From Ricinus communis (lineage: Eukaryota > Streptophyta > Magnoliopsida > Malpighiales > Euphorbiaceae): 64,000 bases of DNA. The translations under genes were made by a program, and so were the position numbers. Under the pieces are notes generated by a model. That model did not search any database, was not told where the DNA came from, and saw only the letters and a list, made by a program, of their open reading frames with translations. Shown here one piece after another: positions 26,571 through 33,330 of this stretch. Position 1 is the first letter of the stretch, and the number at the start of each line of letters is the position of its first letter. The DNA is taken from the NCBI RefSeq assembly GCF_019578655.1, contig NC_063263.1, positions 25,233,001-25,297,000 on the forward strand. The letters are read 5' to 3'.

Positions 26571-27642
26571 CACTTTTCAATAAAAAAATTTCTAAAGATT
26601 AAAATTCAAAGTAATAGATTAATATATATTAGAAAAGATGCAAATGTTCAACCTCATCTAAAACACTAGCTCTAATCACTATCTATCTCATTGTACAAAC
26701 CCTAATCCTCTTCTATTTATTCATCCTCATCATCCGATTCCAACTCTTACTCTTCCTCAACATTGTCATCATCAATTTCTAGGTTTTCACCTTGTGGATC
26801 ATTCAAAGAGACAAATTCTATAATGTCTTAAATTATAATAGAATGAGTCTCAATGTCATCTTCTTAAAAGGCAGGTATGACTCGAGACAGTTGTATTATT
26901 TCAAATGATTTTGCAATTTTAGCTATGACCCTTGGTTTAATTTGACAAACAACCCACTATTCGCTTTTGTCACGCCTTAGGCTAGGGTAAGGACAAATAC
27001 ACGCTTGAAAAGCTTGAGCAACCAAAAATAAATGGGCCATACTTATTAAATTTGCGCTTATGGTTGACCTTTACAAGCTTTCATTGAGAATGAACTTTAG
27101 TCCCTAATTTGGCATCATATCAAATCATTCACACTTAAATAGTATGGTTCTTTTAATTGGTAATGCAGAATACTCCAACTGTATAACTTTAATTAGTCGC
27201 CCATAGTCGGATCAAACCATTAACATTTAAATAATCACCGAATGAACAAAAGATGCTAATTGAAATGAATATTCAAATTAACAATTTAATTCAAACATAA
27301 ATACTCATGTAGTTATCAAACATATATGAAAATTCATGTTTAAGTTTAACATCAATCTTATGTCTTTCAATGTTTGGTTTCGTTGCTTTAAATTGTTAAA
27401 AGAATTGTACAAGACAAAAAAATAAATTATTAAATTTTCTTTATTAAATTGAAATATGAAATATGAATACTTACTCAATAAATGGTTCAACTTTTGAGCA
27501 ATGGAGTAAAATGTAGCATTGAGCAATATTATATTCTTTTGTTGCCATAAATCTTGATTTTCCCTTTCTAACTGCTCGACCAGAATATTTAAATATTAAA
27601 GAATTACCTTACTACTCTTTTCCCAATGCTGAACAACCCTTA
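26571..27642. other. CACTA spacer, no gene seen
   Basis: AT-rich sequence between the second gene and the G insertion. Only short chance frames are present, and no repeat family in the window matches it. Confidence 0.5.
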
Positions 27643-28389
27643 TGATGAGAACCCATGTAGCACAAGGAATCCTACTTTAACAAAGAATCCTAATTCCACT
27701 AAAAATCCTAATCCAGCCAAGAGTCCTGATGACATCAAGAGTTGAAGCGACAAAAGGAATCATATTTCCACTAGGAATCCTAATCCAATTAGCAGTCCTA
27801 CCGAGATTCAACTTTGATTAATTGTATTTCATTCATGGATTAAAGCCCAACGTGAAGACATGAAGATCATATCTGATTTGTGTTGAATTCAAGCCCAAAT
27901 GTAAAGCCCAAGTCCAAGGTTGAATATTCAAAGTCAAAGTCCAAGTCAAAATAGGAGTTTTCTTTTAACAAGTCCAAGTTAAAATAGGAGTTTTCTTTGA
28001 ATTTACTTCAAGTTTTATTTATTTAGGAATCTTGGCCATATATCCTAGTCATTCTAGGATTAGGATTATTATGTTTTAAACTCTATAAATAGAGTTATGT
28101 AATTCGAAATATATAGATCTTTGATTGAATAGAAAACCTTGTTTTTGCTTAAAGAGTTTCTTTGAGTGTTCTTGAGATTAAAGCTTATTGTTTAGGTTTT
28201 GATTTCACTTCTACCTTAATTTAATTCTATTAACTTATTAGTTTCTAGGATTAATTAAGTTCATCTCATTATAGCTATTGATCTTATTTCTTTATAAATA
28301 AGGGTGATAGTTCCGCAAATAGCTTTTGGCAAACCTTATAAGTATCGATCTTGGCATGTAATCTTCTCTTCCATAGAAGGTTTACATCA
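27643..28389 (+). mobile_element. 5' LTR of G (747 bases)
   Basis: It starts TGATGAGAACCC and ends TTTACATCA. A TATAAATA box lies at 28084-28091 inside the palindrome CTCTATAAATAGAG. It has repeated AATCCTA/TCCTAAT units in its first 160 bases and three private substitutions compared with the other two copies of the U3 end. Confidence 0.92.
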
Positions 28390-28391
28390 TT

Positions 28392-28403
28392 TGGTATCAG
28401 AGC
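28392..28403 (+). other. Primer-binding site of G (initiator tRNA-Met)
   Basis: TGGTATCAGAGC, two bases after the LTR end, is the standard plant initiator-Met primer site used by many copia and some gypsy elements. It is intact for at least 12 bases. Confidence 0.9.
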
Positions 28404-29126
28404 TAGCTTACAAGGTTTGGTTACGTATCCTATTTGTTATCTTCGTTGTTCTTCTACTCACATACTCTTTTGTTTGGTTAAAGTCTTTAAGACGTTCTAG
28501 ATAAATTGGTTTGTGATATCTTTATCTTGTTATTTCGTTTCCTTTAATTTGCTTGATCAAAGTCTTCGAGATGTTTCAATCAAATTAAGCTCTATGTGTT
28601 TTGTTCTTGTTTGCTTATAAAAAAGAGAGTATAAAAAGCAAAAAAAAAAAAAGATTGTATGTGGATCTGAATTATTGATTCGAAGTAAGGCTAAAAAAAA
28701 AGAGAAAGAGTATAAAAAGCAAGATTTGGAGCTGATTCAAAAAAAAAAGATTGACTTGGTCAAGGTCAAAATCCAAAGAAAATCAAGTTTGAAGATATCA
28801 TATAACCTTCTCTTTTCAATTCCTTTTCCTATTCTACTTTTCCTTAATTGTTTCCTATTTGAATTCTTATATTCCTCTTTATCATTCTATTATTCTTTAT
28901 TTCTTCTACTTCCATCCTTATTCTTAGTTCGTTATCTTATTCTCCTTTTCCTTTAATTCATCTTTAGCTTAATTAATTTTTTTTCTAGCTTGTTAATTGT
29001 GTTGTGATTTTAACTTTTACAATTTGAGTTAATTTTGAAGGGCACAAAGACAAACTCTTTCTTTAATTGAGTGAAACACGAGGGTCTTTACTTTGAGTGT
29101 TAAACACGTGAGATTGTGTGTAAGAT
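28404..29126 (+). other. Untranslated leader of G
   Basis: T- and A-rich leader without a believable gene. Two related segments with AAGTCTT(T/C)(A/G)AGA(T/C)G occur near 28480 and 28560, and purine-rich AAAAGAGAG(T) units near 28620-28710 hint at small duplications. Confidence 0.5.
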
Positions 29127-29738
29127 ATGTTTTATCAAGAGGAGTTTGCTAGAGGACGTCGAGATCTTCTTTATCAATCTTATGATAGATTGTGGGGATG
29201 AAAGAATGATGATTATTATGAAAATTGTTTGCAAAATTTTTATAATCCTAAACCTAAGCCAAAGAAGATAGAAAGACAATCACGTCAAGATTTCATTGAT
29301 GAACTTTCAAAGGATATAAAATCTTTAAGGAGTAGCCTTAAAAATAGTTTTAAAGATTTAAAGGGATGGGAGCATCTTGAAGATAAAGCTGAGTCTAAGC
29401 CATCTTTGGAAACTAATATTGATGATATAGAAAAGGTAAATTGCTCTACTGAAGTCGATGAAGATACAAAAGGCATAATGAATGAAGATGGTGAAAAAGA
29501 TAAACTTTTGAGCGAAATCCAAAATGAAGAGATCATCATTGAAGATGAAGCAAAAGTTGAGCTGGTGAAGAATGAAAATATTTTACTTGATGCCATTGAG
29601 CCAATTGAACATGTTGATTTTATTGGCATTGAAAGTATTATTTGTTCTAAAGTTCCTCTAACAACTCCTGTGAAAGATCTGCAAGTTGATAATGAGTTAG
29701 TATTGTTCTTTGAGATTATATGTTTACTTCTTTCATAA
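29127..29738 (+). CDS. Acidic protein of unknown function encoded by G
   Basis: The likely ATG is at 29127 and opens MFYQEEFARGRRDLLYQSYD; an in-frame TGA at 29199 follows after 24 codons, and the frame then stays open to the TAA at 29736-29738 (about 180 codons). The protein is Lys/Glu/Asp-rich, with a basic segment (KPKPKKIERQSR), helical DELSKDIKSLRSSLK and a long acidic C-terminal half ending in a hydrophobic tail. There is no zinc knuckle, protease or polymerase motif. It could be a decayed gag-like or cis-acting protein of a non-autonomous element. I do not recognise the family. The TGA may be a mutation in this copy. Confidence 0.55.
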
Positions 29739-29770
29739 TATTCGAGCAAGATTCGAGGATGAATCTTTTC

Positions 29771-29784
29771 AAAGAAAGGGGGAA
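29771..29784 (+). other. Polypurine tract of G
   Basis: AAAGAAAGGGGGAA lies immediately before the 3' LTR start, as expected for plus-strand priming. The sequence just upstream (ATTCGAGGATGAATC) resembles the pre-PPT region of many gypsy elements. Confidence 0.85.
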
Positions 29785-30413
29785 TGATGAGAACCCATGT
29801 AGCATAAGGAATCCTACTTCAACAAAGAATCCTAATTCCACTAAAGATCCTAATCCAGCTAAGAGTCCTGATGACATCAAGAGTTGAAGCGACAAAAGAA
29901 ATCCTATTTCCACTAGGAATCCTAATCCAATTAGAAGTCCTACCGAGATTCAACTTTGATTAATTGTATTTCATTCATGGATTAAAGCCCAACGTGAAGA
30001 CATGAAGATCATATCTGATTTGTGTTGAATTCAAGCCCAAACGTAAAGCCCAAGTCCAAGGTTGAATATTCAAAGTCAAAGTCCAAGTCAAAATAGGAGT
30101 TTTCTTTTAACAAGTCCAAGTTAAAATAGGAGTTTTTTTTTAATTTACTTCAAGTTTTATTTATTTAGGAATCTTGGCCATATATCCTAGTCATTCTAGG
30201 ATTAGGATTATTATGTTTTAAACTCTATAAATAGAGCTAAGTAATTCGAAATATATAGATCTTTCATTGAATAGAAAACCTTGTTTTTGCTTAAAGAGTT
30301 TCTTTGAGTGTTCTTGAGATTAAAGCTTACTGTTTAGGTTTTGATTTCACTTCTACCTTAATTTAATTATATTAACTTGTTAGTTTCTAGGATTAATTAA
30401 GTTCATCTCATTA
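29785..30413 (+). mobile_element. 3' LTR of G lacking its U5 end
   Basis: It matches the 5' LTR from TGATGAG through CATCTCATTA, then stops. The final ~118 bases, including TTACATCA, are absent. Four private substitutions lie in the first 160 bases. The junction shares ATTA (30410-30413) with the inverted piece that follows. Confidence 0.9.
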
Positions 30414-30589
30414 ATCAAAGTTGAATCTCGGTAGGACTGCTAATTGGATTAGGATTCCTAGTGGAAATAGGATTCCTTTTGTCGCTTCAACTCTTGATGT
30501 CATCAGGACTCTTGGCTGGATTAGGATCTTTAGTGGAATTAGGATTCTTTGTTGAAGTAGGATTCCTTGTGCTACATGGGTTCTCATCA
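30414..30589 (-). repeat. Inverted U3-end piece of the G LTR closing the insertion
   Basis: This is the reverse complement of the first ~176 bases of the LTR, ending ...GGTTCTCATCA followed by the target copy CCTTA. At the seven sites where the two direct LTRs differ in this region, this copy carries the state shared with one or other LTR and has no private change of its own. Confidence 0.92.
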
Positions 30590-30594
30590 CCTTA

Positions 30595-33330
30595 TATTTA
30601 CATGGCAGTTCTTGATGCCTCGTACTTACATGATCCTCAAAGTAGTGCGAACAAAATAATTATGCTTCTTCGACTAAATATGCATTATATATTAATCCTT
30701 CCACCTTCGCTTTATTTCTTACGTTTTTTCTAACCTCCGAATGTACCTACAATATCGGAACATAATAAATACATAATGCATATTGGACATGATACAATTC
30801 TTTAGGCCAATGTAATTTCAATTCCTTACTTCTAAAATGGAGACATCCTCCGATAATGCATAGGAGCGGCTATTCTTTCTTCATAAATCAAATAGATCGA
30901 AAGATGTTCCATAGAGTCAAAGAAGCTTGGAGGAAAAATACGCTACAACTTACAGAGAATAATAGGAATCTCTACTTCAAGTCGAATCATCTCCTCATTG
31001 GTTATTATTCTATTTGTTAGATCCTTAAAGAAGAGGCTCGGTTCTATTAGTGCCTTCCACATATTGTTAGGAATCAGTTCACGGAATGCATGAAAACATG
31101 ATATTTGTGGCTTTTCATCCAGAAAGAGCTTAAGTTTGTTCATATCCACGCATCTAGCCATATTTGACACATATCCACTAGGAAATCTGAGACTTTTTAT
31201 CCATTCACATAATACTTATTTGGCTTGCGTATCTAGTGTATAACAAGCTATAGGGTATTTTCCCATTGTAGAACTACGTTCTAACTCAGGTCAACAACAA
31301 TTTTGATGCAACCCCTTTCTAGGTTTGATTGTGTCTTTCCTTTTACCATCCCTATTCATGACAATGTTAAACACATTATTAAATATATTTTTTTCAATAT
31401 GCATCACATCTAAGTTATGCGGAATTAGATTAGTACTCCAATAAGGTAAATCCCAAAAGATGCTTTTTTCTCCAACCGCAGCTCTTACATATCAATCAGT
31501 TAATATCATCAGCATCAACTTATGTAACCTTCTTAAGCCCCAACTGCTCAATATTATGCAATATCTCAACTCCAGATCTAACTAATGGTGGAAATTTTCT
31601 CACTATTTTATTCTTAATAAATGATGTTTTATTCCTTCGAAATGGATGAGTTGGTAGTAAGAACTTATGATGTGATGAGAACCTATGTAGCACAAGTCCA
31701 AGTTAAAATAGGAGTTTTCTTTGAATTTACTTCAAGTTTTATTTATTTAGGAATCTTGGCCATATATCCTAGTCATTCTAGGATTAGGATTATTATGTTT
31801 TAAACTCTATAAATAGAGCTATGTAATTCGAAATATATAGATCTTTGATTGAATAGAAAACCTTATTTTTGCTTAAAGAGTTTCTTTGAGTGTTCTTGAG
31901 ATTAAAGCTTATTGTTTAGGTTTTGATTTCACTTCTACCTTAATTTAATTCTATTAACTTGTTAGTTTCTAGGATTAATTAAGTTCATCTCATTATAGCT
32001 ATTGATCTTATTTCTTTATAAATAAGGGTGATAGTTCCGCAAATAACTTTTGGCAAACCTTATAAATATTGATCTTGGCATGTAATCTTCTCTTCCATAA
32101 AAGGTTTACATCATGATGGTTATCAAACCACAACTGCTTTTTTACTTTCAATAAGTGTAAAAGCATGAGATTGTTCCATGTAATAGGGGCAAGCTAACCT
32201 TCCAGCAATACTCTAACCAAACAACATCGGATATATAAGGACATCATTGATTGTCCATATAAGTGCAGCTCGCATAATTTTATTTCCTCGAAATATCATA
32301 TGTCTACACGCACCTTCATGAAACAATTGTTTAAGTTCTACAATTAGTGGCTGCAATTATCCTTGGGGTTTCTTGGCCTAGGTACTAAAACCGTTAAAAA
32401 TATATAGGCATTCTTCATACAAATCCAAGGTGGCAAATTGTACGCCATCACAATAACAGGCCAGGAAGAATATTGTTGCCTTGATTGGCTAAATGGTTGA
32501 AACCCATCAACGCAAAGACTTAGCCTAACATTCTTACTTCCATCAGCAAAATCTGGATGTGTCTGATTAAAATGCATCGAAGCATGAGAATATGGAGTAA
32601 TGCCGTATAACACCATCTTCAACCTCATGCTCAGTGTGCCACCGCATTTCCCTAGCTGTTGCATTTGATGCATACAATCGTTGCATTCGATGAGTTAGGG
32701 GAAAGTAGTACATATTCTTATAAGGCTATAATATTTTATGTCTATTACCAACTTCTCAATGTTGCCTCTTACACCAAGGATGATCATAAAACTTGCAACT
32801 ACTAAAATCATTGTCTTCATCCCAAGATCACATGCAACCATTAGAACAATAATAAAATTTTCAAGCACATGACTGTTATCAAGAGTAGTCTCTTTCTTCA
32901 GTCGTACCATGTCAATTAAAATTCTATTTAGACAGATGGTGTTTTGCTTTCATGTTCATCAATTGAGCTACAAGCAATAACTGTAAATGGTTATTAGAAC
33001 TAGGGTACAAGTCCTGATCTACAACAATCAGCATGTCTAAGACTTTTAAGCCTCAGGGTTTGGTAATTCCTCCATGTAATTAGGATTCAATTCAGGACCT
33101 GCAACATCCATTATCATTGTTTGGTATGGATTGAATGATTTTGTATATTCTCTATGGAAATCATTATTTTTTGGTGTCAATTATATGCTTTAACAGTTTT
33201 CCTATGAAAAGTCCAATCGTAATACTTCGGAATAGAACTATATCTGTATAAATGAAGCATAACCATTTCCACTTCATGCAATGCGGTTCTGGCACTTATG
33301 ATGGTTACATGGACATCTTTTTTTTTTCCA
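30595..33330 (-). pseudogene. TNP2-type CACTA transposase, degenerate and interrupted
   Basis: Reading right to left: a CPC-type transposase-associated N-terminal region (about 33320-33190), PNPEA and YPGSNNH-like motifs (33070-32980), the RLYASNATAR/MRWHTEH block (32700-32620), then the frame 32673-32344 with NVRLSLCVDGFQPF and NLPPWICMKNAY, hallmarks of TNP2 (Transposase_21). Next come the AALIWTINDV and LACPYYME regions (32290-32180), NHHKFLLPTHPFRR (31670-31630), and a C-terminal part with LIEPSLFFKDL and EEMIRLEVEIPIILCKL (31070-30945) typical of the DUF4218 region. Many frameshifts and the solo LTR 31673-32113 break it. The enzyme would cut and paste the element; this one cannot. Confidence 0.88.
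31673..32113 (+). mobile_element. Solo LTR of the G family inside TNP2, target duplication TGATG
   Basis: TGATG flanks it on both sides (31668-31672 and 32114-32118), and removing it with one target copy rejoins the TNP2 frame. It starts TGATGAGAACC and ends TTTACATCA, but is 441 bases instead of 747: about 306 bases are missing between two ACAAG repeats near 31698. No interior remains, so the element was reduced by LTR-LTR recombination or was a deletion product. Confidence 0.9.

Follow-up and report, generated by a model that had tools for sequence, protein, structure and literature searches.

In a 64,000-nucleotide stretch of the Ricinus communis genome (NCBI RefSeq assembly GCF_019578655.1, contig NC_063263.1, positions 25,233,001 to 25,297,000 of the forward strand; here called the window, with positions counted from its first letter), a retrotransposon with long terminal repeats (LTRs), here called G, occupies positions 27643-30589 (2947 bp) and has the U3 end of its LTR at both borders. 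The best explanation, to which a probability of about 0.86 is given, is that G is one concerted insertion, made by integrase, of an aberrant linear complementary DNA (cDNA) that carried U3 at each border. G is not alone. Integration of two U3 ends is recurrent in this one family of plant LTR retrotransposons, with four other inserts lying inside perfect 5-bp target-site duplications (TSDs).

Structure of the element

The structure of G is borne out both by reading of the sequence and by BLAST. A 5' LTR is followed by an interior with a primer binding site (PBS) and a polypurine tract (PPT), then by a 3' LTR that stops at LTR position 629, and then by LTR positions 180-1 in inverted orientation. 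A perfect CCTTA stands on either side. The left border reads CCTTA followed by TGATGAGAACCC; the right border reads GGGTTCTCATCA followed by CCTTA.

27638..27642, plus strand: left TSD CCTTA (sequence; empty-site frame test)
27643..28389, plus strand: 5' LTR, 747 bp, TGATGAG...TTACATCA (BLAST, sequence)
28084..28091, plus strand: TATAAATA, a probable promoter box in U3, its role judged from sequence
28390..29784, plus strand: internal region, 1395 bp (sequence)
28392..28403, plus strand: PBS TGGTATCAGAGC, 2 bases past the LTR (sequence), which we take to match the initiator tRNA
29202..29738, plus strand: stop-to-stop open frame, 178 aa, no Pfam match (Pfam search)
29771..29782, plus strand: PPT AAAGAAAGGGGG, then AA, then TGATGAG (sequence)
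29785..30413, plus strand: truncated 3' LTR, LTR 1-629, without LTR 630-747 and thus without the U5 end (BLAST)
30410..30413, plus strand: junction microhomology ATTA (sequence, BLAST)
30410..30589, minus strand: inverted U3 tip, LTR 180-1, ending GGGTTCTCATCA (BLAST)
30590..30594, plus strand: right TSD CCTTA (sequence; empty-site frame test)

G therefore carries the hallmarks of an LTR retrotransposon: direct LTRs bounded by TG...CA, a PBS, a PPT and a 5-bp TSD. The direct LTRs are 97.5% identical over 629 bp (BLAST), with the 3' copy lacking its own CA end. The hallmark that G does not show is the pairing of one U3 border with one U5 border. An earlier note on this DNA had described the perfect CCTTA, the inverted LTR tip at the right end, the 3' LTR without U5 and the ATTA at the junction, and all of these stand. 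Only the length that it gave to the inverted U3 tip, about 176 bases, must be changed; the tip is 180 bases long, the extra four being the shared ATTA.

No pol gene was recognised in G, and its 178-aa and 111-aa interior plus-strand frames matched no Pfam family above cut-off. As the gag-pol of an autonomous element is not seen, G looks non-autonomous; integrase would therefore have been supplied in trans. The perfect CCTTA and the exact U3 tip are not what one-ended integration of the retroviral type leaves behind. A DNA transposon with terminal inverted repeats, or a fold-back element, mobilised by a transposase acting on its inverted ends, is less likely; the LTR U3 tips and a TSD of the length used by the LTR family speak against it. 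A scan of viral_contigs with the U3 tip of G gave 0 matches.

Recurrence in the genome

The 315.5-Mb assembly that contains the window was searched with a 30-base U3-tip pattern at up to 3 mismatches. This gave 514 matches; the reversed pattern gave 0. The tips were sorted by the preceding base, to omit those that follow a PPT, and 18 preceded by C, 86 by G, 58 by T and 100 of the 103 preceded by A but not AA were taken in. Tips preceded by AA, or with other base changes, lie outside these lists. The 262 tips taken in are therefore an incomplete set, in which inner duplicated tips and some tips of another repeat are also counted.

Among the tips listed, 15 opposed pairs were found, in which a plus-strand tip is followed within 20 kb by a minus-strand tip. 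Four of these are formed by inner duplicated tips at loci that the count already includes, so that 11 loci remain. Six of the 11 are shorter than 6 kb, and five of those six, G included, have a perfect 5-bp TSD. When G is left out, the count is four of five, against 0.0016 expected per locus; this is the frequency with which a 5-base match occurs by chance at about G's spacing (95 of 59000 window positions). With a further locus that was found by homology, six short loci of the U3-U3 or U3-U3-like kind, all under 6 kb, are known besides G. Four have perfect TSDs, one matches at 4 of 5 bases, and one has a degraded left tip.

L061, 765 bp: TSD GAAAG, perfect; U3 at both borders, no internal region
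L062, 244 bp: TSD CTGCT, perfect; U3 at both borders, no internal region
L064, 468 bp: TSD AGGGG, perfect; U3 at both borders, no internal region
C2 insert (L079/L080/L083; locus C2:20934650-20939500), C2:20934851-20939177, 4327 bp: TSD TAAAG, perfect; U3 at both borders
L063, 1411 bp: CACAG/CATAG (4/5); LTR 1-741 plus inverted LTR 698-3, terminal CA changed to TA; found by homology
L078, C5:23170900-23172100: U3-to-U3-like, of the duplicated-tip subfamily; degraded left tip

The earlier note had pointed to other inserts with inverted tips inside 5-bp duplications as the thing to look for in the genome, and the four perfect cases are of this kind. Together with the empty-site frame test described below, they support its proposal that DNA with U3 at both ends was integrated.

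Among the 40 of 1087 candidates that were scored, a 262-base query across the junction of G gave a full-length match only at the window. Copies of G's family with ordinary U3 and U5 borders show perfect 5-bp TSDs that include AGTAC, AATAC, CTAAA, ATTAC, GAATT and TGATG. One opposed U5-U5 pair appears in L001-L060, with 3 of 5 TSD bases mismatched, and none in 11 further loci, all of these loci having been chosen around U3 tips.

The five opposed-tip loci of 9.97-14.9 kb gave no TSD match (0 of 5), and were set aside. Four of the five (L070-L077, 10-15 kb) carry U3-tip-like sequence in both arms, where blocks of 68-86% similarity reach to about LTR 170. The similarity among their copies extends beyond the tips and no TSD is seen; this is apparently another repeat with a shared LTR tip. 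At L081/L082 (C1:18503600-18518750), opposed U3-like tips lie 14.9 kb apart with no TSD match, a locus judged on TSD and tip alone. A tandem duplication of the first ~87 LTR bases, which puts two U3 tips in a row, marks a subfamily that is seen at L007, L008, L015, L019, L021, L022, L024, L026, L062 and L065.

The target and its empty site

G interrupts a minus-strand gene of another transposon, in which a second, normally ended copy of G's family also lies.

27305..27637, minus strand: left flank, the same target gene continued; best-supported part about 27474-27637 (frame test)
30595..31300, minus strand: right flank, broken gene with DUF4218, the insertion target of G (Pfam, frame test)
31673..32113, plus strand: solo LTR of G's family, U3 deleted at LTR 25-325, normal TTACATCA end (control for normal ends)
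32344..32694, minus strand: tnp2 transposase fragment (Transposase_21, PF02992, E 6.6e-26) (Pfam)

DUF4218 (PF13960) was recognised in the target transposon flanking G at E values of 1e-7 and 1.6e-16. The tnp2 and DUF4218 domains are presumably markers of a transposon of the CACTA type. The solo LTR, 1.1 kb from G in this same transposon, has a perfect TSD of its own (TGATG, at 31668-31672 and 32114-32118).

To examine the empty site, the flanks of G were fused over a single CCTTA, over two or over none, and each version was aligned by tblastn to 60 relatives. Alignments were counted if they covered at least 15 codons on one side of the join and at least 20 on the other. With one CCTTA, 23 alignments cross the join; with two, 1 does; with none, 0 do. 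In P0001 (Ipomoea batatas according to its source), 103 residues align gap-free over the one-CCTTA join. The relatives were, of course, picked with the one-CCTTA query, which may bias their choice but not their reading frames. One CCTTA preserves the transposase-associated reading frame of the joined flanks, while two or none disrupt it. Most likely, therefore, CCTTA stood once at the empty site, and exactly five bases were duplicated on insertion.

The ends offered to integrase

The ends of the unintegrated cDNA of G's family can be deduced from the PPT and PBS sides of the LTRs. The U3 end would read AATGATGAGAACC and the U5 end, as its reverse complement, AATGATGTAAACC. The seven terminal bases (AATGATG) are identical in the two, as are 11 of 13 bases overall. 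Integrase may thus see nearly one and the same site at U3 and U5 ends.

This bears on the suggestion, made in the earlier note, that U5 is dispensable. The insertions indicate that integration can do without a U5 end if a second U3 end is given, and to this extent the suggestion holds. It must be qualified, however, because 11 of the 13 terminal bases match between the two ends; the sequence of the end is not thereby shown to be unimportant.

The formation of G is best pictured as follows. A nearly complete cDNA, ending in its 3' LTR at LTR 629, would have been joined at ATTA to a 180-bp piece with an intact U3 end, probably before integration. The join could have been made by microhomology end joining of cDNA pieces, or by a plus-strand template switch onto another plus-strand U3 piece. 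Integrase, probably acting in trans, would have used the pair of U3 ends in the normal way, giving the 5-bp duplication.

Joins and the chain at C2

Breakpoints in the second arm vary across the loci (LTR 180, 348, 52, 51, 698 and 502), with the outer tip intact or nearly so. Some joins fall at homology: ATTA in G, and 9 bp in L064 (ATTAGGATT, by eye). In L063 the arms overlap by 10 bp, 7 of them within the reference LTR, and the join sits at an inverted repeat close to the U5 end. Among enumerated joins between an LTR and an inverted LTR, 2.7% have homology of at least 4 bp.

The C2 insert reads as a chain. Its first piece, from subfamily A, is an LTR followed by ~235-250 bp from the start of the interior; it is joined at GAGA (by eye) to an element of subfamily B, at that element's trimmed U3 tip. 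The subfamily B element has a duplicated LTR tip and a complete U5 end, with 1.1 kb of its interior outside the part that was read. Its U5 end is followed by T, then by inverted LTR 135-1, then by TT, and then by inverted LTR 502-1, which forms the outer border. The TT adjoins the inner U3 tip, and is the dinucleotide expected beside the U3 tip of an unintegrated cDNA, because such a cDNA, to judge from the PPT and PBS sides, would run AATGATG...CATCATT. This chain is evidence, although not proof, that cDNA pieces were joined before integration.

The earlier note had proposed a template switch during plus-strand synthesis. A U3-ended DNA is supported, but end joining of cDNAs accounts at least equally well for the joining of several pieces at C2. 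For G itself, end joining cannot be distinguished from a plus-strand template switch.

Other unusual arrangements of the family were seen. At L030 (~1501-2168, with the locus reverse-complemented), LTR 1-302 is joined to inverted LTR 747-386. The U5 tip, joined there inside the LTR, reads TGACG for TGATG with an extra A before it; this is perhaps another cDNA join or a self-integration. At L069 (2736-8196), a tandem array of several LTRs and interiors lies inside one perfect AATAC TSD, with normal U3 and U5 outer ends. At L065 (3608-3630), neighbouring LTRs are joined as CATCA-A-TGATG, resembling a two-LTR circle junction.

The three LTR copies of G

Over LTR 1-629, the direct LTRs of G differ at 16 positions. 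The solo LTR polarises nine of these (position 21, and eight from 353 to 595), placing seven derived changes in the 3' LTR and two in the 5' LTR. Over LTR 1-180, where the inverted tip can be compared, the direct LTRs differ at seven sites. Three private changes fall in the 5' LTR, four in the 3' LTR and none in the inverted tip, which shares 0 of 3 with the former and 0 of 4 with the latter; a recount gave the same numbers as the earlier note.

The earlier note had read this as one event of reverse transcription rather than a later rearrangement. The pattern is weakly consistent with three copies that were identical at insertion, and is not used here as main evidence. With only seven sites, it confines any copying to the first 63% or 53% of G's age ((1-f)^n at 5%, by hand calculation), and a rearrangement within that time is allowed.

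Weighing the explanations

An alternative to the integration of a two-U3 cDNA is that G was once a normal provirus, altered later by two template switches, or by gene conversion, so that an inverted U3 tip took the place of U5 and the switch back fell within CATCA. CATCA is, indeed, common to both LTR ends, and the absence of shared private changes still permits such an event early in G's life. The exact border observed, however, is the outcome of one of 243 switch-back homologies of at least 5 bp, counted with about 300 bases of flank per side. The same coincidence must then repeat in L061, L062, L064 and C2, the first three of which have no internal region at all, making a later alteration improbable. 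Still harder to credit is that the family integrated twice at one site and that the stretch between the two copies was then deleted. The family did insert again nearby, as the solo LTR attests, but the use of the same 5-bp target by chance (0.0016) must be repeated at four other loci. Inverted duplications are a known type of artefact, and a fold-back read might in principle have produced one here. This is also very improbable; each direct LTR has private sites (3 and 4 of 7) that set it apart from the inverted copy, and from the duplicated CCTTA onwards the right flank continues the frame of the gene. Later inversion of a normal provirus, double insertion and artefact were rejected on these grounds.

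A further proposal is compatible with the integration of a two-U3 cDNA, and would specify where the second U3 came from. It would always be the PPT-primed 5' end of plus-strand strong-stop DNA, onto which a displacing or snapped-back plus strand switched; the short U3-U3 inserts would be dimers of such strands. In its favour, wherever the TSD can be read the outer second end is a U3 tip, with inner breakpoints that vary, and the joins of L063, at an inverted repeat, and of L064, at 9-bp homology, also suit it. A displacement model of plus-strand recombination is described in PMC3187697. End joining is, however, simpler for C2, with its two subfamilies, several joins and TT at an inner U3 tip. 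The strong-stop proposal also predicts that no U5-U5 inserts are formed, but the loci examined were picked by their U3 tips. On balance it is possible, but rather doubtful.

Some observations count against the integration of a two-U3 cDNA, or weaken the case for it. The L061 join shows no homology, and the arms of L062 are separated by 15 bases. The TT in C2 could be a chance addition of two bases, the base at its U5 join being a single T. At L078 there is no readable left tip or TSD. The TSD is itself an imperfect yardstick: L001-L060 contain 22 opposed U3-U5 pairs, a set in which inner duplicated tips, ends belonging to different insertions and loci retrieved twice are also counted, and of these pairs 2 have a perfect TSD and 4 have one with a single mismatch. 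Lastly, equal ageing of the three copies predicts about 2.3 changes in the inverted tip of G; zero is mildly unexpected, with P at 0.10 (from the whole-LTR rate) or 0.06 (as (2/3)^7).

Relation to known systems

Integration is usually described as requiring the action of integrase on both U3 and U5 ends (PMC11054761). Aberrant integration is described for retroviruses, with end mutants of avian sarcoma-leukosis virus (ASLV), and with human immunodeficiency virus type 1 (HIV-1) under integrase inhibitors or with resistant integrase (PMC5041404). As in G, a viral end may there be cut short and have extra viral sequence, in either orientation, fused to it. Unlike G, with its exact 5-bp TSD at both borders, the aberrant retroviral end is joined by host enzymes, usually with large duplications or deletions and no 5-bp repeat.

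Retroviral intasomes have also been made on identical ends. The integrase of Rous sarcoma virus (RSV) assembles on GU3 oligonucleotides in vitro (PMC7955051). Those of mouse mammary tumour virus (MMTV) and Rev-A give concerted products from U5-end oligonucleotides (PMC3790719). For retroviral enzymes it is thus established in vitro that concerted integration can use two copies of one LTR end, as in G. These intasomes are, however, formed on oligonucleotides in vitro, whereas G's case is natural, recurring and in a plant genome.

The strand displacement assimilation model (PMC3187697) likewise has plus-strand pieces free for recombination before integration. It yields, however, ordinary recombinants and not U3-ended molecules. 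The tandem arrays and two-LTR-like junctions of L069 and L065 resemble G in that they, too, arise when copies or cDNAs are joined or recombine. Unlike G, they are head-to-tail, and the outer ends of L069 are a normal U3 and U5.

No report of natural two-U3 integration was found in the literature searched, which held few of the subscription journals, and a prior report is quite possible. What would be new here is natural, recurrent two-U3 integration with exact TSDs in a plant; the biochemistry was anticipated in vitro.

Natural U3-U3 inserts are a record of the cDNA by-products that integrase accepts, and a means of comparing end joining with template switching. They also offer a route from LTR elements to inverted-repeat elements that annotation could misfile. 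Two-U3 integration may even be a regular side road, by which unfinished plus-strand products and U3-tipped cDNA fragments are joined and integrated as pairs, a view that is plausible although held at somewhat less than even odds. Were it true, LTR elements would yield compact inverted-repeat inserts (244-1411 bp) that resemble fold-back transposons, or transposons like miniature inverted-repeat transposable elements (MITEs), with 5-bp TSDs.

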